Positions 2-11,957 of a DNA stretch of 11,957 nucleotides are shown here, piece after piece; within the stretch, counting starts at the first letter, position 1; the number at the start of each line of letters is the position of its first letter. Source of the stretch: Ectopseudomonas composti (GTDB taxonomy: Bacteria; Pseudomonadota; Gammaproteobacteria; Pseudomonadales; Pseudomonadaceae); assembly GCA_946886245.1 (NCBI GenBank), contig CAMPIF010000078.1:1-11957 (forward strand). The letters run 5' to 3'. The notes under the pieces are model-generated. The model saw nothing but the letters and a program-made list of their open reading frames with translations. It ran no database searches and had not been told where the DNA came from. A program made the translations under genes and the position numbers.

Positions 2-1345
2 GACGTGTGCGCCGCCTTGCTGGTCTCGATCTCACCATCGCGTGCCGCCCAGGCGCTGTCGGCATACCGGAGGCTGCTTCGCCACGCAGCGCCGCCACAC
101 CCCCTCGACGCCATCGCCTTGAACGACGTGGTTCGGTACGGTGAATCCCTCGAAGTACGACAGCGCTACCGGCTGCGCCGGCTCAAGGAACACCTGCTGC
201 TGTGGGTGGAACTGGGAACCCCGGGGCTGGACGTCGACCTCCATCGTGCCTTGCCCCGGCTGGTCACGCAGACGCATGAGGTCGGCAATGCCGTGCGCAT
301 GATGGACGTGGACGCCGGCCCGCTGACCGACATCGAGTACGAGGGTGTCACCACGGCCATGCGGCGCGAGTTCGCTGCCGGCCACCTTGGCCTGGCCGAC
401 TACACCCTCCTGACCTTGGCCGTGACCCTGGGCACCCGGCCGTTGCAACTCGCAGCGATGAAGTGCAAGGATTTCAGCGCGACACAGCGGCAGGACGGCA
501 GCAGCATCTTCATCCTGCAGGTCACCCGCCTCAAGCAAGGCAAGGGCATCCGTCCCCGAACGCTGTTCAGGCCGCGCGAGCTGTCCAGCGGCCTCGGCGC
601 CCTGGTGCAGGCGCAATGCAAGGCAGCGGCGGACTGGGCACAGCGACACGGGCTGCCTGTGGGCGAGGCGCCCATCTTCCCCTCGGCGCAGTTCACCAGA
701 ACCCCGCATATGGCCGAGATCGGGCTGCTCGGCCACTTCACCGGCCGGGGCGTCAGCGACAAGCTCTGTCGGCTGTTCCAGAAACTGGAAGTGGTCTCCC
801 ATCGCACGGGGAAACCTCTGGTGATGTCGCCCATCCGCCTGAGACGCACGCTCGGCACCCGGGCGGCGGCCGAAGGATGCTCGGCGCCCGTCATCGCGGA
901 CCTGCTGGATCACAGTTGGTTCGATTCCAGCCTGGTCTATGTCGAAACGCGGTCGGCCATGATCGAGCGCATCGACAAGGCACTTGCGTTGCAGATCGCT
1001 CCGCTTGCCCAGGCCTTCGCCGGCACCCTGGCAGTGCGCGACGACAGTAGCGAGGGACGGCTCGTTCACCACGTGTCGGCCGAAGCGTTCGACGCGATCG
1101 GCCGGTGCGGCAAGCACGACTTCTGCCGTCTCGCTGCGCCACTGGCCTGCTACACCTGCTCGTACTTCCACCCCTGGATCGACGCCCCTCATGAGGCGCT
1201 GCTCGATGGCCTGCTCAGCGAGCGGTCGGCGCTGGCGACATCGACCGACCTTCGCGTCGCCTCCGTGAACGACCTGACGATCCTTGCGGTGGCCGAGGTG
1301 GTCCAGCGTTGCCGGGACTCTCAGCATGAACGGGAGGCCGCATGA
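2..1345 (+). CDS. gmtY: Tyrosine recombinase GmtY-like, 5' end cut by window
   Basis: A site-specific tyrosine recombinase, presumably acting on the island ends. The frame is open to the window edge. A GTG at 5 could start it, but nothing upstream can be judged, so I treat it as 5'-partial (446 residues from that GTG). An N-terminal helical, SAM-like DNA-binding part covers roughly residues 1 to 100. The catalytic domain follows: Arg145 in TRPLQL, basic residues in KQGKG (177 to 181), Arg280 in RLRRT, His303 in LLDHS and nucleophile Tyr312 in LVYVET. The position normally held by the first box II His is Ile277. A Cys cluster follows (C368, C374, C382, C385, around KHDFC and CYTC) and looks zinc-binding. 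Its stop overlaps the next ATG (ATGA at 1342 to 1345), implying coupled translation. Membership of the GmtY family is inferred from motifs plus gene order. Confidence 0.82.
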   Translation, partial: DVCAALLVSISPSRAAQALSAYRRLLRHAAPPHPLDAIALNDVVRYGESLEVRQRYRLRRLKEHLLLWVELGTPGLDVDLHRALPRLVTQTHEVGNAVRMMDVDAGPLTDIEYEGVTTAMRREFAAGHLGLADYTLLTLAVTLGTRPLQLAAMKCKDFSATQRQDGSSIFILQVTRLKQGKGIRPRTLFRPRELSSGLGALVQAQCKAAADWAQRHGLPVGEAPIFPSAQFTRTPHMAEIGLLGHFTGRGVSDKLCRLFQKLEVVSHRTGKPLVMSPIRLRRTLGTRAAAEGCSAPVIADLLDHSWFDSSLVYVETRSAMIERIDKALALQIAPLAQAFAGTLAVRDDSSEGRLVHHVSAEAFDAIGRCGKHDFCRLAAPLACYTCSYFHPWIDAPHEALLDGLLSERSALATSTDLRVASVNDLTILAVAEVVQRCRDSQHEREAA

Positions 1346-3417
1346 CCACCGTGACCCGACTGAAACCCAGGGCATTGCGCGATGCGCAGGCCAAGCTGGA
1401 CGCCTTCATCGCCAACGCTCGGAACGAACTCACGGCCTTCGGGAAGGACCTGGAGTTCGATTCGGATTGCTGGGACGTGACCGAGCACTACCTGGCCCAG
1501 GGGGACCGGCGGGCCAAGCAGGCCCGCGTGCGCTTCTTCTTCATCAAGGTGCCCGGCGCCGGCGGGCAAACACTGTCGCCCAAGGTTCGCGCGCTGGCCA
1601 AGGCCTACGTGCGAAGCGAGCTGGCCCAGCGCTCGGCAAGCGCGGCGCTGCGGGCGGTGCAGGCGTTCCACGTACTCGGCATTGCCATGAGGAAGCAGCG
1701 GCTCGCCTCCGCAGCAGAGATCGACCGGACCACCTTCGACGCCGCCGTGACTGCCATGGACGACGGCCGCGGCGATGCATCCCTCGACGGGATCGGCTTC
1801 CGCCTCGGGCAGATCGCCCGGTTTCTGGAAGACCGGATGCTGTGCGCCCACACGACCGGCACCTGGCGCTACGCGATGCGCCGGGGCAGTACCTACGGTC
1901 GCATCGGCGAAGCCTTCGAGGCCCGCAAGCGCAGGCTGATGCCTGCCCCCGCAGCCCTGGACGCCCTGGCGCGCGCATTCCATCTGGCATCCGACCCGAG
2001 GGACGTGCTCATCACGTCCGTGGCGGCCATCCTGTGCGCCGCGCCGGAGCGCTTCAACGAGGTGCTGGCCTTGCCTGCGGACTGCGAGGTGGACGTTCCG
2101 GGCGATGGCGAGGTACGACATCTTGGCCTGCGCTGGGCGGGCTCCAAAGGCTACGACGGCCACGTCAAGCTGATCCTGCCCGGGATGGCGGACGTGGTGC
2201 GCGAGGCGTTGCGCAGGATTCGCGGCCTCACGGAACACGCCCGCCACCTCGCCCGATGGTACGAGGCGAACCCGACGCGGATCTACCTGCCGCCGGAATG
2301 GGAGCACCTGCGCACGCAGGAGTTCATCGACTTCGAGGACATCGCCGATCTCCTGGGACTCGGGGGTGTGAGCAAGCGGAACCACGCGCGCACCTGGGTG
2401 CAGAGCGCGGGGCTTCCCGTCACGATGGTGGTGCGCGTGGCGGGCCACATCCCAGCGATGGTGGTTCGATTCGCTGACTTCGAGCGCCACGTCGTCCACC
2501 AGTTGCCGCCGCACTTTCCCTATGCAGACGCCAGGACCGGACTGAAGTACGGTGAGGCGCTGCTGGTCATCCCCGCGAGGTTGTTCCGAACCGGTGTCGG
2601 CAGCTCGTGCATGCTGGAGCCGCTGAAGTACCACCATGTGGGCAATGGGCTCGGCCAGAACGCCAAGGCCGGCAGTGTCACCGTGTTCCAGCGCGTCGGG
2701 CTCGACCCGAATCGCACGCTGTCCATCAAGAGCCACCAGTTCCGGCACTGGCTCAATACCCTGGCCCAGGGCGCGAATCTGTCCCAGGTGGACATCGCCA
2801 AGTGGAGCGGCCGCAGGGACATCCGTCAGAACGCGGCCTACGACCACGTCTCCAGCCAGGAGATCGTGGCACACATCCGTTCTGTGGTGGGCGATCACGC
2901 GAAAGTCATCGGCCCGCTGGCGGAGATTCCGAAGCATCTACCGGTGTCGCGCGACGAATACGCGGCGATGGCCGTGCCGACAGCGCATACAACGTTGTAC
3001 GGCTTCTGCATCCATGACTTCGCCTCGGCTCCGTGCGAGATGTTCCGCAACTGCCTGGACTGCCGGGAGCACGTCTGCATCAAGGGGATCGATGGCAAGA
3101 CCGAACGCGTGGCCGCCGCGTTGGAGCAGGCGTCGGCGCAACTCAGGACCGCGCAGGCCGCCGCTGCCGAGGGGGTGTACGGCGCGGCGGACTGGGTTGC
3201 CACCCACCTAGCCACCGTGGAGCGGCTGGACCAGTTGCTGACCATCTTGCGGGACCCGGCGATCGAGGACGGCGCTGTGATCCAGCTCAGCACCGGCGGA
3301 GCCGATTCCCTCTCCGAGAGCGCCGCCCGTGATCGGCTGGCCGGCGTCGACGCTCTGCGGCTCGCAGCGCCGACCGGCGCAACTTCCACCCCCTCATCCA
3401 GGAAATCCCATTCATGA
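1342..3417 (+). CDS. gmtZ: Large tyrosine recombinase GmtZ-like
   Basis: The second recombinase of the trio, 691 aa. Residues 1 to 200 form a long N-terminal part with no motif I recognise. The catalytic domain spans about 205 to 515 and keeps a full set: Arg237 in APERFNE, Lys269 in GSKGYDG, His465 and Arg468 in SHQFRHW, Trp488 in KWSGR and Tyr500 in NAAYDH. A Cys cluster (C556, C565, C571, C574, C579) starts with C-I-HDF and echoes the Cys cluster of the upstream recombinase. A helical, Ala/Glu-rich segment (585 to 640) probably forms a coiled coil, followed by a Ser-rich tail. The start at 1342 is supported by GGGAGG at 1332 to 1337 and the ATGA overlap with the previous stop. The stop likewise overlaps the next start, so all three proteins are probably made together and may act as a complex. 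Confidence 0.85.
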   Translation: MTTVTRLKPRALRDAQAKLDAFIANARNELTAFGKDLEFDSDCWDVTEHYLAQGDRRAKQARVRFFFIKVPGAGGQTLSPKVRALAKAYVRSELAQRSASAALRAVQAFHVLGIAMRKQRLASAAEIDRTTFDAAVTAMDDGRGDASLDGIGFRLGQIARFLEDRMLCAHTTGTWRYAMRRGSTYGRIGEAFEARKRRLMPAPAALDALARAFHLASDPRDVLITSVAAILCAAPERFNEVLALPADCEVDVPGDGEVRHLGLRWAGSKGYDGHVKLILPGMADVVREALRRIRGLTEHARHLARWYEANPTRIYLPPEWEHLRTQEFIDFEDIADLLGLGGVSKRNHARTWVQSAGLPVTMVVRVAGHIPAMVVRFADFERHVVHQLPPHFPYADARTGLKYGEALLVIPARLFRTGVGSSCMLEPLKYHHVGNGLGQNAKAGSVTVFQRVGLDPNRTLSIKSHQFRHWLNTLAQGANLSQVDIAKWSGRRDIRQNAAYDHVSSQEIVAHIRSVVGDHAKVIGPLAEIPKHLPVSRDEYAAMAVPTAHTTLYGFCIHDFASAPCEMFRNCLDCREHVCIKGIDGKTERVAAALEQASAQLRTAQAAAAEGVYGAADWVATHLATVERLDQLLTILRDPAIEDGAVIQLSTGGADSLSESAARDRLAGVDALRLAAPTGATSTPSSRKSHS

Positions 3418-3872
3418 CACGACGTTCCCCTAACCTCACGCCAGAGCGGGTAGAGGCCATCCTGACGATGGTCCGCGCCTGGGAGGGCCGGCTGACGTGG
3501 CCGGCGCTCATCCAGGCCGCCGAAAAACGGTTTGGCTGCGCCTACACACGGCAGGCCCTGTTCAAGCACGCTCCGATCCGCATCGCGTACGACGTCTGCC
3601 GCAACGCGACTCCAGCGTCGGTGAGAGTCAAGCCGGGCCGGCCTGTATCCGCTGCCTTGCAGGCCGCGATGGATCGGGTTCATCGCCTGCAACAGGAGAA
3701 CGCGGAACTCCGCAGGCGCGAGATGCTGCTGCTCGAGCAGTTCCATCGGTGGGCCTACCACGCCAGCTCGCGCGGGCTGACCCAGCACTTCCTGGATCAG
3801 CCGCTGCCACCACTGAACCGCAGGGGCAATCGCACACCTCCCCACCAACCACATCACACTGGCTCGACGTAG
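3414..3872 (+). CDS. gmtX: Small HTH/coiled-coil protein GmtX-like
   Basis: The third gene of the trio, 152 aa. It has no catalytic motif. Residues 8 to 60 look like a compact helical DNA-binding domain (LTPERVEAIL, then a turn around TRQALFKH). Residues 78 to 110 form a heptad-rich coiled coil (RVHRLQQENAELRRREMLLL). The tail after about 132 is Pro/Arg/His-rich and probably disordered. The start is fixed by the ATGA overlap with the second recombinase at 3414 to 3417 and by a GGAA ribosome-binding site about 9 bases upstream. Family and position suggest an accessory factor, perhaps bridging recombinases at DNA ends. That role is inference: the protein itself shows only DNA-binding-like and dimerisation-like features. 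Confidence 0.78.
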   Translation: MTRRSPNLTPERVEAILTMVRAWEGRLTWPALIQAAEKRFGCAYTRQALFKHAPIRIAYDVCRNATPASVRVKPGRPVSAALQAAMDRVHRLQQENAELRRREMLLLEQFHRWAYHASSRGLTQHFLDQPLPPLNRRGNRTPPHQPHHTGST

Positions 3873-3943: not shown

Positions 3944-3964
3944 CTGCAAATGCATAGAGCTGCG

Positions 3965-3993
3965 TTGATCATACGCATGTCTGCGTGTAAAAT
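3965..3993 (+). promoter_or_regulatory. Sigma-70 promoter of the regulator-methylase-nuclease operon
   Basis: TTGATC at 3965 to 3970 and TAAAAT at 3988 to 3993, separated by 17 bases, are both close to consensus. A start site about 7 bases after the -10 box falls on or beside the ATG at 4000. No ribosome-binding site precedes that ATG, so the message is probably leaderless. The promoter serves the cargo operon independently of the recombinase genes. Confidence 0.7.
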
Positions 3994-3998
3994 ACGCA
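3971..3998. promoter_or_regulatory. Operator-like triple ATACGCA repeat inside the promoter
   Basis: ATACGCA at 3971 to 3977 and 3992 to 3998, with the near-complement TGCGTGT at 3982 to 3988 between them. The first pair forms a dyad inside the spacer of the promoter; the second pair straddles the -10 box. MerR-family regulators classically bind such spacer dyads, so the regulator encoded just downstream probably controls its own operon here. One base differs from a perfect dyad. Confidence 0.6.
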
Positions 3999-3999
3999 G

Positions 4000-4530
4000 A
4001 TGCGATCCATAACCATCAGCGACCTGTGCGAACTCACGGGCTACTCGCGCGACCAGATGCGCGGGCTGCTGGCTGAATTGCCACGTTTCGCGCGTAGGCA
4101 TGCTGAGGCGCGGGTGGCTCGCGTGTACTCAAACCATGATGTGATGTTGGTGGTGGTGCTCTGTCGGCTGGAGACGGTGTATGGTCTTAGGAGAAGCATC
4201 GTCTCTGCTCTCTGCGAATCGATCGCTGCGAGCTTGACGGCACCGCGCAAAGTCAGCAAGCAGGCCTGCTTGATCTTGCGGGCCCACGATGCAACATGCG
4301 AATACGTCGATACAGCACCTCTGATCGACGATGGCTTGGTTGTCGCGCTGGGACCTATTTTCCTGGCCATCGACTCCTATCTACTACCGACGCCGCTGGT
4401 ACAGCGAGACGTGGGACTCTCCGCCACTGGCACGCAACACAACCCCGCCACCGCAAAGGCTGTCGGACGTCAAGGACGTGTCGCGCGTGAGATGGTGCCT
4501 CGACATCGAGAGCGGTCGAACCATGGGTAA
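4000..4530 (+). CDS. MerR-like HTH regulator of the defence operon
   Basis: A 176-aa protein. Residues 4 to 27 (ITISDLCELTGYSRDQMRGL) read as a MerR-type helix-turn-helix and residues 39 to 58 (ARVYSNHDVMLVVVLCRLET) as the wing plus following helix. The rest has no motif I recognise and no metal-binding Cys pattern typical of metal-sensing MerR proteins. ATG 4000 is chosen because the HTH begins right after it. It has no Shine-Dalgarno sequence, fitting a leaderless transcript. The last 8 bases overlap the methyltransferase start, so the two are translationally linked. By position it should control dosage of the methyltransferase and nuclease, as controller proteins do in restriction-modification systems. 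That role is inferred; the HTH call rests on residue pattern only. Confidence 0.72.
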   Translation: MRSITISDLCELTGYSRDQMRGLLAELPRFARRHAEARVARVYSNHDVMLVVVLCRLETVYGLRRSIVSALCESIAASLTAPRKVSKQACLILRAHDATCEYVDTAPLIDDGLVVALGPIFLAIDSYLLPTPLVQRDVGLSATGTQHNPATAKAVGRQGRVAREMVPRHRERSNHG

Positions 4531-7372
4531 TCGTCCGCCTTGGTGGGATGCTTGGCTGCGACCAGACACCGGCGCACAAGTAAAGGGGCTTGTGCGGGTA
4601 CTCGGCTACCTGCCCGATGGCCGTCCACCCGAAGAAGTCGCCACCATGGAGAAGGCAGCCGAGTACGGGGCTGACGCCGTGTTCTTCGAGATTGAACAGC
4701 ACGGTAGACGTGCCTCGGCGCAAGCCTTCATCTATGGCGTCAACACGTTGGCTGATGATCGGGAGTTTGCCGAGCGTCACCGCATGCTCTGGAGTTGGGG
4801 TGGCGTGCCCTTGGTGTATCGGCGTACGCCAGGATTGCTGCAGTTGTTCCGTTGTGCGCATCGTCCCGACTTTCTCACTGATGACGGGCGCATCCAGTGC
4901 AACCCAATCAAGTATCTGGATCTGGCTACGGCAATAGAGCTCGATCCCTGGTGGGATGAGGACAGTATCCGTAGCGGAACACTGTGGACGGATCCTGCAA
5001 CCTGTGACCTGCTTCTGTCGAACAGCAAGGCAGCACACAAAAGCCTGTTCGATGCGTTCAAGCGGCTGAGCAGCTATCTCGACGAGAAGAACATTCTTCC
5101 GAAGCGTTTGCGTCGCCGGTTGTTGATCCTGTCGTTGCTGATTGCCTACCTAGAACAACGAGGCGTTTTCGGCGAAGGTTTTTTTGCAGCTTTTCAGCCC
5201 GATGCACAACGCTTTTTCGAGGTTTTGGGTAACGGACCGGCTCTGGTCAAGTTGCTTGCAGCCTTGGAAGACCGGTTCAACGGCAACGTGTTCACACTGG
5301 AACCGTCGGAAGTGGACAAGCTTCTGAGCACCCAGCAGTTGGAGCGCTTCGCTCGAATGATCGAAGCACGTGAGAATCAGACGGGCCAGCTGTCGCTGTG
5401 GGATCTGTATTCGTTCCGGGACTTGCCGGTCGAGTTGATCAGCCAGATCTACCAGTTGTTTGTGGAGAACGAGGACAGCTCGGTCTACACCCCTCCATTC
5501 CTAGTGCGGTTCCTGGTGGAGGAAGCCCTGAACTGGGATGCACTTGACCACATCACTTCGCACAACCAAGTGGTGCTGGATCCGTCTTGCGGCTCCGGCG
5601 TGTTCCTGGTGGAGGCCTACAAGCGCCTAGTGTTGCACTGGCGCCTGCGTCATCAGTGGCGGCGCCCGGACAAGCATGTGCTGCAGAGCTTGCTGGCTTT
5701 CGTCCATGGGGTCGATCTTGAGGAGGACGCCGTCGAACTCGCCGGTTTCAGCCTGTGCTTGGCCATGTGCGACGCCTTGCAGCCGGCACAGATCCGGCGC
5801 AGCATCAAGCTGTTCCCGAACCTGCGTCAACAGACATTGCATCATGGCTGTTTCTTTGCAGCCAAAGAGGCCGGGCAGTTGCCGGCCCGAATTGGGGCCG
5901 TCCTGGGCAATCCACCGTTCGCGTCCACACTGCAGACACCGGCCACCCAACGGGCCTATGCACGGTATCAAACCGAGCATCACAAGAAACTCCCCGACAA
6001 GCAGGCGGGCTACCTCTTTCTGCACGAGGCCAGCGAGATCATGGAGGACGGTGCAACGATCTCCATGCTGCAGCAGTACAACTTTTTGTACAACCAGAAT
6101 GCGCTCGCGTTTCGGCAGCAGTACCTGGAGCGCTACTGGGTGCGCGAGATCCTGGACTTCGTTTCGGTGCGTGGCCTTTTCCAGAAGGGCGATGCCGATA
6201 CCAAAGTCATTGTTGTCGTGGCGCAAAAGCGAGTCCGTCCCGACACCGCCACTTTGCTCCATGCAACGTTCCGCCGAACCGGCCGCATTGACGCCGAGCA
6301 GGGACTGGATCTGGACTACTACGACCTGCACGTCGTGCCATATCGCGTTGCACAGACGAACGACCGCCTCTGGCGTGCAAACCTCCTGGGAGGCGGTCGA
6401 ACCTTGTCGCTTGTGAACCGGTTAGCACAGATGCGCACGCTGCGCCAATATGCGGAACAGCGGGATTGGGACGTTGGCGAAGGCTTCATTGTTGGCAAAA
6501 AAGTCCAGCGTAAGCGCGCGCCCCATCTAACAGGACATCCCTATCTGCCCTCCAAGGCGTTGACGACAAGCGGCATCGACGAGTCCCAGATTCAGCCCCT
6601 GAAAGACGAGTTTTTCCGCTCGGCGTATACCGAGCGACGCTTCACCCCGCCAATGTTGCTGGTGCGTGAACAGATGCACCTCGCCCACGCAGTATGGCAA
6701 GGGCACTACCTAACGTATAGCCAGCGGATGGTTGGCTTCTGCGCGCCGCAGAAGGACTTGCCAAAGCTCAACGCCATTGATCGTTGGATGAGCGCCGAAA
6801 AGCGCACTCTGCGGGCCTATTTGGCTCTGACCAGCCCCGGGCTGTTCGCTCAAAAGGCGACTGCGCTGCAGGCCGACGATATCTACTCGATTCCATACCC
6901 TGCTGACGGATCGTTCGATCTGAGCGACAACGAGCGCATCGTGGTCGACGACATCGTGGACTACCAGTCGGATCTGATACGGCTGGGGGAATCGTCGATA
7001 GCGATGCGCCAGGTCGCCGATGAAGACCTCCAGGTGTACGCGGAGGTTCTGGCGAATCAGGTCAACGCACTATACGGGTCACCCAGCTTCGGGCTGCGTG
7101 GCCAGTTCAGTTGGTCGGGTGCGGTGTGCCAAGCCTACGCGTTTGGCGACGCTCAGATCGATTGGTCAGGGGCGGAAGAACTGCGAGACCGCATCTCGGC
7201 TTTGCTGCACGCACCATCGCACCAGCACCTGGCTCTCACGCGCATCTGCCGACTGTATGACCACCGTTTCCTGTTCATACTGAAACCTGACCGTTTGCGC
7301 TACTGGATGCGCTCCGTCGGACTGCGCGATGCCGATGACATCTTGGCAGATCTGCGGGCCCAGGGCTACTAG
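4523..7372 (+). CDS. N6-adenine DNA methyltransferase, large restriction-modification type
   Basis: 949 aa from ATG 4523. The frame is open upstream to an ATG at 4331, but that stretch overlaps the regulator gene and reads as non-protein-like. GAGAGCGG lies just before 4523. Residues 50 to 111 (ADAVFFEIEQ ... PLVYRRT) match the N-terminal domain often seen in Eco57I-like and other large adenine methylases. A helical region (about 170 to 320) precedes YTPPF (322 to 326), the SAM motif I DPSCGSGVF (353 to 361) and catalytic motif IV NPPF (463 to 466), the gamma-class order. About 400 residues follow, likely holding target recognition. I see no intact PD-(D/E)XK motif in the N-terminus, so cutting probably depends on the gene downstream. 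Size resembles type IIG or BREX-associated enzymes, but no BREX partners are present in the window. It probably marks self DNA. Confidence 0.88.
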   Translation: MGNRPPWWDAWLRPDTGAQVKGLVRVLGYLPDGRPPEEVATMEKAAEYGADAVFFEIEQHGRRASAQAFIYGVNTLADDREFAERHRMLWSWGGVPLVYRRTPGLLQLFRCAHRPDFLTDDGRIQCNPIKYLDLATAIELDPWWDEDSIRSGTLWTDPATCDLLLSNSKAAHKSLFDAFKRLSSYLDEKNILPKRLRRRLLILSLLIAYLEQRGVFGEGFFAAFQPDAQRFFEVLGNGPALVKLLAALEDRFNGNVFTLEPSEVDKLLSTQQLERFARMIEARENQTGQLSLWDLYSFRDLPVELISQIYQLFVENEDSSVYTPPFLVRFLVEEALNWDALDHITSHNQVVLDPSCGSGVFLVEAYKRLVLHWRLRHQWRRPDKHVLQSLLAFVHGVDLEEDAVELAGFSLCLAMCDALQPAQIRRSIKLFPNLRQQTLHHGCFFAAKEAGQLPARIGAVLGNPPFASTLQTPATQRAYARYQTEHHKKLPDKQAGYLFLHEASEIMEDGATISMLQQYNFLYNQNALAFRQQYLERYWVREILDFVSVRGLFQKGDADTKVIVVVAQKRVRPDTATLLHATFRRTGRIDAEQGLDLDYYDLHVVPYRVAQTNDRLWRANLLGGGRTLSLVNRLAQMRTLRQYAEQRDWDVGEGFIVGKKVQRKRAPHLTGHPYLPSKALTTSGIDESQIQPLKDEFFRSAYTERRFTPPMLLVREQMHLAHAVWQGHYLTYSQRMVGFCAPQKDLPKLNAIDRWMSAEKRTLRAYLALTSPGLFAQKATALQADDIYSIPYPADGSFDLSDNERIVVDDIVDYQSDLIRLGESSIAMRQVADEDLQVYAEVLANQVNALYGSPSFGLRGQFSWSGAVCQAYAFGDAQIDWSGAEELRDRISALLHAPSHQHLALTRICRLYDHRFLFILKPDRLRYWMRSVGLRDADDILADLRAQGY

Positions 7373-7381
7373 CGAGGCGCG

Positions 7382-8098
7382 ATGCTGGCGGACGGATCTA
7401 CCTCTCACGCATTGGGCCAATTGGCCTCGGGGTTTCTTGCCGAAGGCCAATCTCGTGCCGCCATCCTGGACTTTATTCTCGGACAGCTCCCCCGCTGGCG
7501 AGACCGGCCTGATCGACCTCTACGCACCAGCGAGACGATGCTTACGTCGCAACTGTGCGCCCACCTCAACAGTGCAGCACGCAAGACTCCAGGCTGGGAT
7601 TGCCTGCAATTTCGTGTGGAGGAAGCTGATGAGACACATGTCTCGCGCAAGATCGATCTCGTGGCTGCGGCTGCAGGCGATGCGCTGATCGTGCAAGGTC
7701 GGAGCTACAGTGATTTCGAGACGATTTTGCCAATTGAATGCAAGCGACTGCCCATTCCCGTCGGCTCGGGACGAGACGAGCGCGAATACGTCGTGACACG
7801 CGTTGGAGTGGGTGGAGGTATCCAACGCTACAAGGAGGGCAAGCATGGTGCTGCGCATGTTCGTGCAGCCTTGATCGCGTACGTGCAGGAACAAAGCTTC
7901 GATCATTGGCTTGCTTTGATCAGTGGCTGGATTCATGACTTACACACCAGTGGTACTCCCGGCTGGTCGGTCGCCGATGCGCTGGTAACTCATGGTCAAG
8001 ACCCCACGGCCGGCATTGCGGTACATGAGTCAGTGCATAGCCGGAACAGTCTGCCTTCAATCCACTTGCGCCACCTGTGGGTGAAGATGACGCTCTAG
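7382..8098 (+). CDS. PD-(D/E)XK-type restriction nuclease, putative
   Basis: 238 aa. The core fits the PD-(D/E)XK nuclease fold: an early Glu in a helix (E51 in ETMLTSQL), Asp92 in RKIDLVA, and E119-C-K121 in LPIECKRL. A GGIQRYKEGKHG stretch (145 to 156) follows, a pattern seen in restriction-related proteins. It starts 9 bases after the methyltransferase stop with GAGG only 4 bases before the ATG, so it depends on the same message and may be made at a lower level. By context it is the cleaving or sensing partner of the methyltransferase. No helicase, ATPase or specificity subunit lies nearby. The catalytic assignment is from motif reading. The family is not one I can name. Confidence 0.72.
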   Translation: MLADGSTSHALGQLASGFLAEGQSRAAILDFILGQLPRWRDRPDRPLRTSETMLTSQLCAHLNSAARKTPGWDCLQFRVEEADETHVSRKIDLVAAAAGDALIVQGRSYSDFETILPIECKRLPIPVGSGRDEREYVVTRVGVGGGIQRYKEGKHGAAHVRAALIAYVQEQSFDHWLALISGWIHDLHTSGTPGWSVADALVTHGQDPTAGIAVHESVHSRNSLPSIHLRHLWVKMTL

Positions 8099-8312
8099 TG
8101 CGATGACCGGGCTGAAAGTTTGCAAAGCCGTGAACACCTGCTCCCACTGCTGAATCCAACAGATTCACGAGGTTCCAACACACACTCTCGTGTCAATTCA
8201 CACTTCCTCTTCGCCTCCGACCGTAAGGTCGCAATCCAATTGCGTTTGCTGCTGCTCGAGGATGGCAGTTCGACATGGGGCATGCGCTATTTACAATGTC
8301 TCGTTCCCCATA
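8099..8312. other. Right terminal non-coding segment of the island
   Basis: About 210 bases with no convincing gene. The stretch has a lower GC content than the right flank. It holds three inverted repeats: CGACC-GTAA-GGTCG at 8218 to 8231, GCAAT-CCA-ATTGC at 8231 to 8243, and ATGGGG (8275 to 8280) facing CCCCAT (8306 to 8311). The last arm touches the point where the PAPS reductase-like sequence stops, so this is a candidate recombination end for the trio recombinases. No T-rich terminator after the nuclease gene is visible. Confidence 0.5.
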
Positions 8313-8726
8313 AGAGGTACAGAACCTGGAGGACGCCGAACTCCACGGCATGATGAGCTTGACGCACGACAGCGCTCGGTAACGCCGCACGTTGGTCTCC
8401 CAGCGCACCCCCCAGCGGTCCACCATGTCGCCGGCCGGCCTGCGGACGGTCACCAGTTCCCAGCCCAGCCTTTGCGCGAGGCGCTCGCACACCGGCGCCG
8501 AATCCTTCCACTCAATCCGGCCCAGGTCGCTGTGGATCAGGACCCGCTGCCCCATATGCCCGATGGCGTCGAGATGGCTGCACACGCGGTACGCGAGCGC
8601 CTGGCTGTCCTTGCCACCGCTCACCCCCACATAGGCCGGCGCGTGCTCCGCCAGTGCCGCGTCGATCATGGGATCGCGGGCGATGTCGAAGCGCGGTGCG
8701 GGAACGGAGCCAGGGCGGGTTGTCAT
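8193..8726 (-). pseudogene. PAPS reductase-family (PP-loop) gene, 3' part lost at island junction
   Basis: The PP-loop signature SGGKDSQALA and the later HSDLGRIEWKDS and LSCVKLIMPW identify the PAPS reductase/DndC-like family common in conjugative elements. In relatives the protein continues past RFCTS with a basic stretch and a second domain. Here the sequence changes right after RFCTS (about 8313) into about 40 unrelated residues read from island DNA, ending at 8193. The genuine remnant is therefore about 8313 to 8726. ATG 8726 is preferred over one 30 bases upstream because the protein start there matches the family better, though the ribosome site GGGAG is very close. The product lacks the C-terminal half and is probably inactive. 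Its original role in the element is not known; members may modify nucleic acids or act in sulfur transfer. Confidence 0.75.
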
Positions 8727-8863
8727 GCTCCCAGCATCCCTGCGAACAGCGCGCATTCAAGGGCGGCCCCGCACGCGCGCCCTCCTCATTCGCCTCCAGC
8801 TTGCCGCCGGGGCTGCAGGGAGGCTGTCGTCCCGCGCGCTCTGAACAGCAGCGCACGTTCTCC

Positions 8864-9208
8864 TCAATAGACGTCGCGGGCATAGCGCCGGTCTCTCGAC
8901 ATACAGGCCAGGTAGTCCGTGGCGGCATCCGCCGTCATGGCGCCATGCTCCTGCACGATCTGCCGGAGCGCTGCATCCACGTCCCTGGCCATGCGGCCGG
9001 CATCGCCGCAAACATAGAAGTGCGCGCCCTCCTGCAACCAGGCCCACAGCAGCGCGCCCTGCTCCCGCAACCGTCCGAAGTTCGTGGGGTGGGTCTTGAT
9101 GCCGGAGACTTTGACCACCTTGCCACCCTGCACGTCCAGGGCCATGCCGCAGCCCACCCCGCAATAGGGGCACACGGTCTTCACCGAGGTCGTGGTCGCC
9201 GAGTTCAT
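8864..9208 (-). pseudogene. nasA: Internally deleted assimilatory nitrate reductase/flavoprotein fusion gene
   Basis: A 114-residue frame joins two ends of a much larger protein. Residues 1 to 47 are the start of an assimilatory molybdopterin nitrate reductase: VCPYCGVGCGM gives three of the four Cys of the N-terminal 4Fe-4S site, then KTHPTNFGRL. The fourth Cys would come next and is missing. From about residue 48 (REQGALLWAWLQEG, then HFYVCGDAGRMARDVD and the ending RYARDVY) it is the C-terminus of a sulfite reductase-type NADPH flavoprotein. In fused enzymes known from proteobacteria these ends are separated by well over a thousand residues. The join at about 9067 keeps the frame. The start is firm: GGAGGA lies 4 bases before the ATG. 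The product cannot reduce nitrate: it lacks the molybdenum-cofactor, FMN and most of the FAD domains. Whether it is translated is unknown. Confidence 0.82.
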
Positions 9209-9285
9209 CCCGTCCTCCCGGAGAGCCGCTGCGCGCGGCGCAGGGGGTCCTGCGGCGGTCGGCAACAGCAGCCTGTCGAATGCGC

Positions 9286-9348
9286 AAAAAAAACGCGTCC
9301 GCACCTTCCTGACCACCGCGCTGAAGCGATGAAGGAACGTGCGGACGC
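9286..9348 (-). terminator. Leader terminator upstream of the nitrate reductase remnant
   Basis: Read on the - strand: a 16-bp stem with one mismatch (arms at 9333 to 9348 and 9295 to 9310), a 22-base loop, one G, then eight Ts (9293 to 9286). It sits between the sigma-54 promoter and the start codon, so it is an attenuator, not an end-of-gene terminator. This matches transcription antitermination control of nitrate assimilation genes. Confidence 0.85.
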
Positions 9349-10231: not shown

Positions 10232-10988
10232 TCAGTCCTCATCCTTGGCAGCGTGCGCGGGAGGGGCCGCGCCATCGAGCGGCCGCTGCCGGGCCCCCTG
10301 CGCCGCTGCGGCGCGCGCATCCATCACCTCGCGGGTGCGAAACCCGACCGGCAGCCGCACCTGGGGGTCGGCGAAGACCCACAGATGGAACTGGTTCGCC
10401 GTGTCCACGAGCCGCGACTCGGCCGGATAGACCTCGAAGCCCTCGTGCTCCTCGCCGACGATGGCGTTCTTGATCCGCTGCAGATCGCGCCAGTCGTGGA
10501 TGGGCGCGCGGTCGCGGCGCTTGATCGACAGCCAGAGCATGTCGCTGGTGTCCGGCCCGAAGGGCGCCGCGATCCGCTGGACGTTGACCTGGTAGCGCTC
10601 GTTCACGTAGACGCGCTGGCGCCTAAGCGCCGCAGCCTGCGCGCGCGCCGCTTCCACGTCGATCCCGAAGCGCGCGGCCAGCACACGCGGATTGAACGCG
10701 CCATCGGGCAGGCGCGCGGCTTCGAAGGGGCCCATCGGCGGCAGGGGCGTCTCGAGCCGCTGCAGCGCGATGGCGCTGTTGTCCAGGCGGTGCGAGCGCC
10801 GCTGCCCACGCCTCCCGCTCGCCTGCGACCGTGGGGCCGACCTCGGCGCTAGCCATGCCCGGCCGCATCCAGGTGAACCAGCACGCGCCGGCCAGATCGG
10901 CGCCGTCCTCCGGCCGGCCACGGTGGACCTCGTAGCCATCGGCCTGCAGCAGGCGCCGCACTTCTTCGCAGAATCGGGTCGTGTTCAT
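10232..10988 (-). pseudogene. Frameshifted hypothetical gene with DUF7694-like C-terminus
   Basis: Two overlapping frames look like one protein. The 5' frame starts at ATG 10988 (MNTTRFCEEVRRLLQADGYE, then WFTWMRPGMASAEVGPT) and stays protein-like to about EAWAAALA near 10795, after which it turns into low-complexity Ala/Arg. The frame shifted one base takes over near 10792 with HRLDNSAIALQRLE and runs to a stop at 10232. That part carries LWLSIKRRDRAP, HDWRDLQRIKN and the DUF7694-like YPAESRLVDTANQFHLWVF. An extra base or a two-base loss around 10792 to 10810 would explain the break. The second frame has no convincing start of its own: its first ATG in good sequence (10735) lacks a ribosome site. 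The start overlaps the methylase-like stop (ATGA, 10985 to 10988). A sequencing error or two real genes are alternatives. Confidence 0.65.
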
Positions 10989-11957
10989 GATGAAGGGGGT
11001 GTTTCGTCGTCGGGGCGGCCGCTGTCGCCGCGTTGCCCAAGCTTCCCGCGCTTGCGCGCGGGTTCAACCCCGCCGGGCGGCGGCCGCGCCGTATCCTGGG
11101 TGCCGTCAGGCCCGAACAGCAGCCTCTGCACGTGCGCGCGTGGCAGGTGCGGCGCGGAGCCCGGCTCGCGGGCGGCGGCATGCGTGCGCGTCGCCGACGC
11201 CGAAGCCCCGTGGCCTCCATCGCCCCCATGCCGCGGCACCTCGCCGGTGCCGGCTCCGGCGGCCGGTTGCCCCTCGGGCGCGGATGCCTCCTCGCTGGCG
11301 AACCGGCGCTGCAGGCGGTATCGCCAGCCGCCGAGCACATGGGCCGGGGTATGCCACCGGCTCCAGACCTCTCCGCTCAGCGAGTTGCCATGCACCACGA
11401 CGGCCGGGATGTGCAGCAGCGCGAGCTGCAGGAAACTCATGTGGACGCACCGCACGTCGATGTCGACGCACGTGGCGTGCAGGACCTGCTGGTAGTTCAG
11501 CCCCGCCGCATGCAGCGCGTCGGCCATCGCGATCACCATCCCCCCTGCCCCGCAGGCGGGCTCCATGACGTCGACGAAGCCATTGGCTTCGACCTCGCCC
11601 CTGGCGGCGGCCGCGTCCCCCACGAGGACCCGCGCCATGAGCTGCGAGACGTGGAACGGCGTGAACACCTGGCCCGCCCTGTCGTTGCCCAGGTCCAGCG
11701 TCATGTACAGGCTGCCGAGCAGGTCCTCGAACTCGCCTTGCGCGCAGCACTGTTCCATCGCGAGGGAGAGGTACCCCAGCATGCGCGGAAAGCGCTCAAA
11801 GTCCTCGCGCGGGTACTTCTTCACGATGTCGTGGTAGCGGGCCTCCCGCTGGTCGAACTGGGCCTTGTCCACCGCGTTGCTGATCGACAGGCACGACAGC
11901 TCGATGAAGTCGGCGAACACGTCGCGAACGCTCCAGCGCGGCGCCATGCCCTGCAGC
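10985..11957 (-). CDS. N-6 DNA methylase-like protein of the host ICE, 5' end cut by window
   Basis: 320 residues from an ATG at 11947, but the frame stays open to the window end and family members usually have residues before this point, so the true start is probably outside. The protein carries the helical N-terminus (VFADFIELSCLSISNAVD), VFTPFHVSQLMA (94 to 105) and the SAM-binding motif EPACGAGG (129 to 136), then CVDID (160 to 164). Where gamma-class adenine methylases have NPPY, it has VVHGNSLSGEVWSRW, with no catalytic motif. The last 100 or so residues are Pro/Ala/Gly/Arg-rich and probably disordered. It is coupled to the downstream gene by an ATGA overlap. Proteins of this kind are common in ICEs of beta- and gammaproteobacteria; their role is unproven, and a SAM-binding but non-methylating function is possible. 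Confidence 0.8.
   Translation of the reverse strand, partial: LQGMAPRWSVRDVFADFIELSCLSISNAVDKAQFDQREARYHDIVKKYPREDFERFPRMLGYLSLAMEQCCAQGEFEDLLGSLYMTLDLGNDRAGQVFTPFHVSQLMARVLVGDAAAARGEVEANGFVDVMEPACGAGGMVIAMADALHAAGLNYQQVLHATCVDIDVRCVHMSFLQLALLHIPAVVVHGNSLSGEVWSRWHTPAHVLGGWRYRLQRRFASEEASAPEGQPAAGAGTGEVPRHGGDGGHGASASATRTHAAAREPGSAPHLPRAHVQRLLFGPDGTQDTARPPPGGVEPARKRGKLGQRGDSGRPDDETPPSS

Follow-up and report, generated by a model that had tools for sequence, protein, structure and literature searches.

An 11,957-nucleotide stretch of Ectopseudomonas composti DNA (contig CAMPIF010000078.1; hereafter the window, with positions counted from its first base) carries a genomic island in which three cargo genes, encoding a regulator, a large N6-adenine methylase and a small nuclease, lie behind a recombinase operon. 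A preliminary description had presented these as three overlapping or near-touching genes forming a candidate defence module, and the layout was confirmed: the methylase ATG at 4523 overlaps the end of the regulator gene (stop codon 4528-4530) by 8 bp, and a gap of 9 nt separates the methylase stop (7372) from the nuclease ATG (7382). The ATG at 4523 is most likely the methylase start, as judged from the many relatives that begin at the corresponding place, and translation of the longer frame that opens at 4331 is improbable. The cargo has the following features.

4000-4530, plus strand: regulator, 176 amino acids, N-terminal helix-turn-helix (HTH), predicted autorepressor
4523-7372, plus strand: gamma-class N6-adenine methylase with target recognition domain, 949 amino acids
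4523-5017, plus strand: methylase N-terminal alpha/beta domain (residues 1-165), without an E-x-K motif
5579-5599, plus strand: S-adenosylmethionine (SAM) motif I, DPSCGSG (residues 353-359)
5909-5920, plus strand: catalytic NPPF (residues 463-466)
6398-6922, plus strand: target recognition domain (residues 626-800), exchanged among relatives
7382-8098, plus strand: PD-(D/E)XK-like nuclease subunit, 238 amino acids, with E51, D92, E119-x-K121 and R149

The methylase and nuclease genes were found to be strictly paired. A sequence search with the nuclease returned 1197 homologues, of which the best 120 were looked at, and a genome scan returned 94 relatives, the best 80 of which make up the set of 80 loci (numbered with the prefix L). 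A methylase lay directly upstream on the same strand in all 80, with the matched ends no more than 98 bp apart, and in 71 of them the methylase formed one frame of 2.7-3.1 kb. Comparisons were made on 70 pairs, namely the window and 69 loci, with L002 (the same as the window) and L059 (a stop within the translated stretch) left out; the catalytic residues of both proteins, including the methylase NPPF, were invariant in 70 of 70. The carriers, many of them metagenome-assembled genomes (MAGs), fall into about nine phyla as read from record titles and partly by our own assignment: Pseudomonadota, Planctomycetota, Verrucomicrobiota, Acidobacteria, Armatimonadetes, Hydrogenedentota, a cyanobacterium, Poribacteria and Desulfobacterota-type lineages. 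The nuclease was also found on 20 plasmid records, including Agrobacterium plasmids such as pTiAg57, where the pair is annotated as 'SAM-dependent methyltransferase' and 'hypothetical protein'. The nuclease had no match in 50,697 phage records and was present in two viral contigs, L124, with the methylase upstream, and L123, which begins 636 bp before the nuclease; the regulator was in none of the viral contigs. On these counts a phage origin of the pair was rejected. No paper describing the pair was found in the open-access literature by title or abstract start, and an earlier assignment in REBASE is possible.

The pairing was also observed among remote relatives. A single-sequence search of 398 Pseudomonadota genomes returned seven methylases at an E value of 1e-20, comprising that of the window, one close relative and five remote ones (24-33% identical over the matched parts), and a nuclease gene lay directly downstream of all seven when checked with profiles built with six of the seven pairs. 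Gene order was kept beside remote-relative methylases of 19-23% identity. With the methylase profile, the seven scored 1032-1222 bits against at most 88 bits for the rest, six of the seven being inside the profile. When the remote nucleases (L085-L089, together with L091, which was found via its regulator) were compared as a group with the nuclease family, hhalign gave a probability of 99.2 (E 3.6e-19 over 176 columns). Individually, they matched the close-family profile at E values of 3e-8 to 0.1, with L087 the weakest, so that the link of single remote nucleases leans on position and the shared motif. Twenty loci of other N6-adenine methylases from the same genomes (L152-L171, chosen for long contigs) served as controls, and no nuclease or regulator match at an E value of 0.01 was seen in the 2.6-5.4 kb downstream of each.

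The stand-alone nuclease of the preliminary description, with D92 and E119-x-K121, was borne out at the level of residues, these three being invariant in 65 aligned nucleases, in all 70 pairs and in a 12-row set including remote relatives, in which E51, Y136, G146, R149 and H231 were likewise invariant. In a structure model with a predicted local distance difference test (pLDDT) score of 88, the elements follow in the order helix 51-68, strand 75-82, strand 90-97 (D92), strand 114-123 (E119 and K121) and strand 161-168; the modelled protein thus has the alpha-beta-beta-beta-alpha-beta core, with D and E-x-K on adjacent strands, that defines the PD-(D/E)XK superfamily. Restriction enzymes or NucC made up eight of the top 12 structural matches (OkrAI 6.5, NucC 5.3, DrdV 4.9, SwaI 4.8 and PspGI 4.7). 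These matches are weak, and support for the predicted nuclease fold comes from the secondary-structure order and the conserved residues. Neither Pfam, NCBIfam, PADLOC, PHROGs nor PDB sequences gave a noteworthy match to the nuclease, and a known family was rejected for it, the few weak rows carrying unrelated names.

The methylase had been described as lacking a visible nuclease motif of its own, and the alignments agree: as judged by eye and by motif, no conserved D...E-x-K was found in residues 1-165 in 51 aligned methylases (of 72 available sequences) or in the 12-row remote set. Part of the protein is recognised by Type IIG models of PADLOC (7.5e-30), a catalogue in which neither the regulator nor the nuclease gave a match at E values up to 1, and the structures of MmeI and DrdV match the methylase as well. 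The best match to BREX PglX reached 49.5 bits against a cut-off of 400, with no brx or pgl partner genes seen in the window, and that to the MADS methylase MAD2 reached 19.3 bits against a cut-off of 720.

Across phyla, methylase identity over the full length is about 50-58%, and for this reason a single fixed specificity was at first suspected. This was rejected, as the target domain proved to be both the least conserved part of the methylase and exchanged. Over the 70 pairs, mean pairwise identity was 69% for the methylase core (residues 300-625), 48% for the target domain (residues 640-800) and 53% for the nuclease, and 4 of 161 target-domain columns were invariant. Single-linkage clustering at 50% identity separated four target-domain groups in 70 loci, one of 66 loci, one of L037 and L062, and L018 and L029 alone. 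Exchange was clearest among L060, L062 and L074 (Verrucomicrobia by record title), whose methylases are 89-93% identical outside residues 626-800. Within sharp borders at about 626 and 800, the target domain of L062 is 34% and 33% identical to those of L060 and L074, which are 50% identical to each other. Nuclease identity among the same loci was 86% (L060 and L062), 82% (L062 and L074) and 83.5% (L060 and L074), and no nuclease block replaced in step with the target domain was found in the 70 pairs. With a nuclease that is kept when the target domain is exchanged, the nuclease would take its aim from the methylase; most likely, specificity is carried by the methylase, with the nuclease as a shared cutting subunit.

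The methylase and nuclease very likely form a restriction-modification pair. It is fairly probable, judging from the sequences, that modification (M) and specificity (S) are combined in one 949-amino-acid protein and that restriction (R) resides in the separate 238-amino-acid nuclease, in a system that would be ATP-independent and mobile. In such a system the methylase would scan DNA and read its target with residues 626-800; at a modified or hemimodified site it would methylate adenine, and at an unmodified site, as in invading DNA, a nuclease docked on the methylase would cut near the site, probably through two complexes meeting. Through two palindromes the regulator would probably shut down the promoter of its own gene, which may be leaderless, and so limit expression after entry into a new host. 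Docking, cleavage and defence are steps that we infer from the features described above.

This division of labour was weighed against an ordinary Type IIP-like arrangement, in which recognition and cutting would both belong to the nuclease and the large methylase would shield the same site. Type II systems often have R and M as separate genes, the best structural match, OkrAI, is a Type II restriction enzyme, and slight tracking of the nuclease with the target domain does remain. The partial rank correlation of the nuclease with the target domain was 0.22, similar to that with the core (0.21) and with the helical domain (0.33), and nucleases were 4-11 points less alike when target domains differed in six of seven matched bins. 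This small residual linkage counts against a fully shared cutting subunit, as does the small number of loci on which the exchange argument rests, with L060, L062 and L074 all being MAGs. However, where the target domain is exchanged (33-34% identity) the nucleases keep 82-86% identity, the level also seen where target domains resemble each other more. This, together with the lack of any nuclease block replaced in step among the 70 pairs, makes the Type IIP-like arrangement unlikely.

Alternatively, unmodified DNA might not be restricted at all, the methylase being epigenetic or an orphan and the nuclease serving otherwise, for example in abortive or modification-dependent cleavage. The close family is patchily distributed, being present in 2 of 398 Pseudomonadota genomes. 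This pattern, the copies on islands and plasmids, the exchange of target domains and the abundance of defence genes nearby are in keeping with a restriction system, so that this explanation appears quite improbable. That the pair is an accident of annotation, with a conserved but unrelated gene next to a Type IIG methylase, might be suggested by PADLOC, which files the methylase alone under Type IIG. With near-touching genes paired at 80 of 80 loci across phyla, and a nuclease homologue at the equivalent position next to methylases of 19-23% identity but next to none of 20 other N6 methylases, it is hardly credible. The PADLOC label would instead mean that the catalogue sees half of the system, the methylase only.

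The trio had also been called unlike the standard types, which was too strong, as a gamma-methyltransferase restriction-modification system of this kind is closest to Type IIG. Type III (Mod-Res) systems have two genes, with a methylase that modifies and recognises and a second protein that cuts. The present pair resembles them in gene number and in a methylase with both modification and recognition, but Type III Res has a helicase motor, whereas the present nuclease is a 238-amino-acid protein with no library match and no helicase gene lies within 4000-8098. A separate R subunit on a gamma-methyltransferase core is shared with Type I (HsdM-HsdS-HsdR), which has HsdS and the motor protein HsdR, whereas neither an HsdS gene nor a motor domain was seen at the present locus; the statement that the trio contains no helicase and no specificity subunit therefore stands. 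Type IIH, represented by AhdI, likewise combines a gamma-methyltransferase with a separate R gene, and AhdI reportedly has a separate S subunit. Passages of PMC4081073 describe AhdI as having a Type IIP-like restriction endonuclease and a methylase catalytic subunit that is one of several parts. Type IIG and IIL enzymes (Eco57I, MmeI and DrdV) share with the present system a gamma-class N6 methylase with a same-chain target domain and target-domain diversification. According to passages of PMC3874165 and PMC4081073, Type IIG enzymes are gamma-methylases that carry an N-terminal R domain within one chain, whereas the present system has a separate downstream R gene and a methylase N-terminus that, by motif, is without E-x-K. 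As its methylase lacks such a domain, the system is, by its sequence features, Type IIG-like in working and not a member of Type IIG by definition.

A broader proposal is a serious, if tentative, possibility: the pair may represent a separate and widespread class of motor-less restriction-modification systems, in which an M-S protein works with an R subunit that is detachable and of general purpose. The N-terminal methylase domain may be what is left of a lost in-chain nuclease and now serve for docking, specificity would change by target-domain swap alone, and in part of the family the operon would be controlled by a repressor of its own with a distinct operator code. If so, the cutting partner of methylases filed as single-gene Type IIG has been overlooked under the label of hypothetical protein, in species of about nine phyla and on plasmids, Ti plasmids among them. 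The class would fill a gap between Type IIG, with one chain, and Types I and III, with a separate R and a motor, and would provide a restriction enzyme that can be re-targeted via one protein while the cutter is held constant.

As for the regulator, the three-gene module of the preliminary description was upheld for the methylase and nuclease, which co-occur throughout, and not for the regulator. A regulator-profile match preceded the methylase in 3 of 80 loci (L002, L003 and L068), eight loci having less than 600 bp upstream, and an obligatory third gene was rejected on this count. The regulator was present in 3 of 100 close relatives, own genome counted, and in 4 of 399 genomes of the order, and by this distribution is clade-specific. 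Its description as MerR-like is weak for the window protein: the Pfam scan gave HTH_26 alone, below the cut-off (E 0.008), with no MerR HTH above the cut-off, whereas among the upstream genes of remote relatives that of L086 exceeded the MerR cut-off, those of L087 and L088 fell below it and those of L085 and L091 gave no match. Forty small upstream open reading frames of other loci were also scanned, and no Pfam family occurred in more than 2 of the 40.

Two palindromes lie directly ahead of the regulator gene.

3961-3977, plus strand: operator palindrome 1, containing the -35 element (3965-3970)
3982-3998, plus strand: operator palindrome 2, 21 bp on, containing the -10 element (3988-3993) and ending one base before the start codon at 4000

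By consensus alone, the promoter claimed for the trio is no better than chance (2 found against 1.4 expected), but its -35 and -10 elements each lie inside a copy of the repeated palindrome, from which autorepression through the two palindromes appears probable. With one base between the second palindrome and the ATG, the leader would be very short or absent. Eight independent regulator loci were readable (the window, L003, L068, L091, L092, L128, L129 and L130), and in six of these the regulator precedes a methylase-nuclease pair. The motif TGCGY-N7-RCGCA was found just upstream of the regulator gene in six of the eight (not in L068 or L130), giving ten sites: window 3961 and 3982; L003 180; L091 3255, 3297 and 3318; L092 7503 (minus-strand gene); L128 1074; and L129 1150 and 1191. 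A second, imperfect palindrome copy was seen by eye 21 bp on in L003 and L128. The outer variable bases were paired (T..A or C..G) in seven of the ten sites and unpaired in three. Background was low: the motif matched 31 times in 1.43 Mb of loci, repeats of the same sites counted, and 0.115 times per window length in single-base shuffles. C proteins and RptR are likewise small DNA-binding proteins encoded ahead of restriction-modification genes, with operators that are repeated across the promoter. RptR, according to passages of PMC12255303, binds TAGCTA and accompanies Type I systems, whereas the present 176-amino-acid regulator is associated with TGCGY-N7-RCGCA. Regulator and operator together offer a directly testable switch.

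Other regulator loci differ in what follows or precedes the gene. In L092 (4404-7480) and L128 (1134-4186), regulator and operator precede a lone 836-840-amino-acid methylase with a TaqI_C match, and a nuclease of the present family was not found beside it. The nuclease partner in L129 (4750-7216) is very divergent (E 0.012) and shows an E-A-K motif; the gene after it encodes an AAA_21 (AbiEii-like) ATPase. Upstream of position 1293 in L130, where the usual operator is absent, a different tandem palindrome, CCCA-N4-TGGG twice, was seen by eye in the promoter region.

The surroundings of the pair are rich in defence-like genes. On pTiAg57 the third gene downstream is of the SIR2 family, and in Asticcacaulis the next gene is of the AbiH family. 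In PADLOC scans at an E value of 1e-20, 96 neighbour genes taken from 26 loci (of 198 genes, called by a longest-frame rule) matched 96 models, compared with 7 models for 96 control genes from 17 stretches at arbitrary positions (of 105 genes called in the same way). These figures count models and not genes, and several models can be hit by a single gene. Among the matches listed for the neighbours were GajA and GajB (Gabija), Type II, Type IIG and SoFic; the control stretches contained one Type IIG gene and mad2-, mad3-, DrmMI- and MzaA-like matches.

The cargo had been placed in a recombinase-trio island, and this also held, the operon ahead of it having the following genes.

2-1345, plus strand: ginB-like tyrosine recombinase (NCBIfam NF041502 integrase, 364 bits against a cut-off of 350), starting upstream of the window
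1342-3417, plus strand: ginC-like large recombinase, 691 amino acids, by size and position as in ginABCD
3414-3872, plus strand: ginD-like small protein, 152 amino acids, by position; the cargo starts after it

In coordinates relative to the window, the full ginB-like frame spans -181 to 1345 (508 amino acids), and a ginA-like frame lies just outside, at -1544 to -174. The ginC-like protein had no library match above cut-off. By the order and sizes of its genes, three recombinases and a small protein in the order ginABCD, the island is of the GInt type, with ginA, ginC and ginD assigned by position. It resembles GInt islands in operon order, in a cargo that begins at about the ginD stop and in carrying restriction-modification genes; according to passages of PMC5385486, GInt cargo starts directly ahead of or behind the ginD stop, and restriction-modification systems are frequent in it. 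Attachment (att) ends characterise the element, whereas an exact-repeat search for direct repeats at the island ends gave a single 13-mer and no convincing att pair. GC content falls from about 0.62-0.71 ahead of the cargo to 0.54-0.62 across it, and Acidovorax sp. 210-6 (L002) shares 99.98% identity with the window. The window lies at G000:C15:197745-209701 on the minus strand and differs from that genome at 2 bases.

Beyond the island, the downstream DNA looks decayed. A PP-loop ATPase-like fragment lies at 8193-8756 on the minus strand (Pfam ATP_bind_3, E 4e-4, below cut-off), which we take to be 3'-phosphoadenosine 5'-phosphosulfate reductase-like, and at 8864-9316 on the same strand a chimeric frame joins a molybdopterin oxidoreductase Fe4S4 domain (7e-16) to another tail, presumably resembling the C-terminus of a sulfite reductase flavoprotein. 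A second, partial N6_Mtase protein (10985-11956, minus strand; E 4e-7), apparently truncated or frame-shifted, exits the window. In Acinetobacter colistiniresistens (L049, 9809-13503, minus strand), the pair lies next to genes distantly related (26-34% identity) to each of the three in the recombinase operon, which may represent a second capture by a gin-type element.
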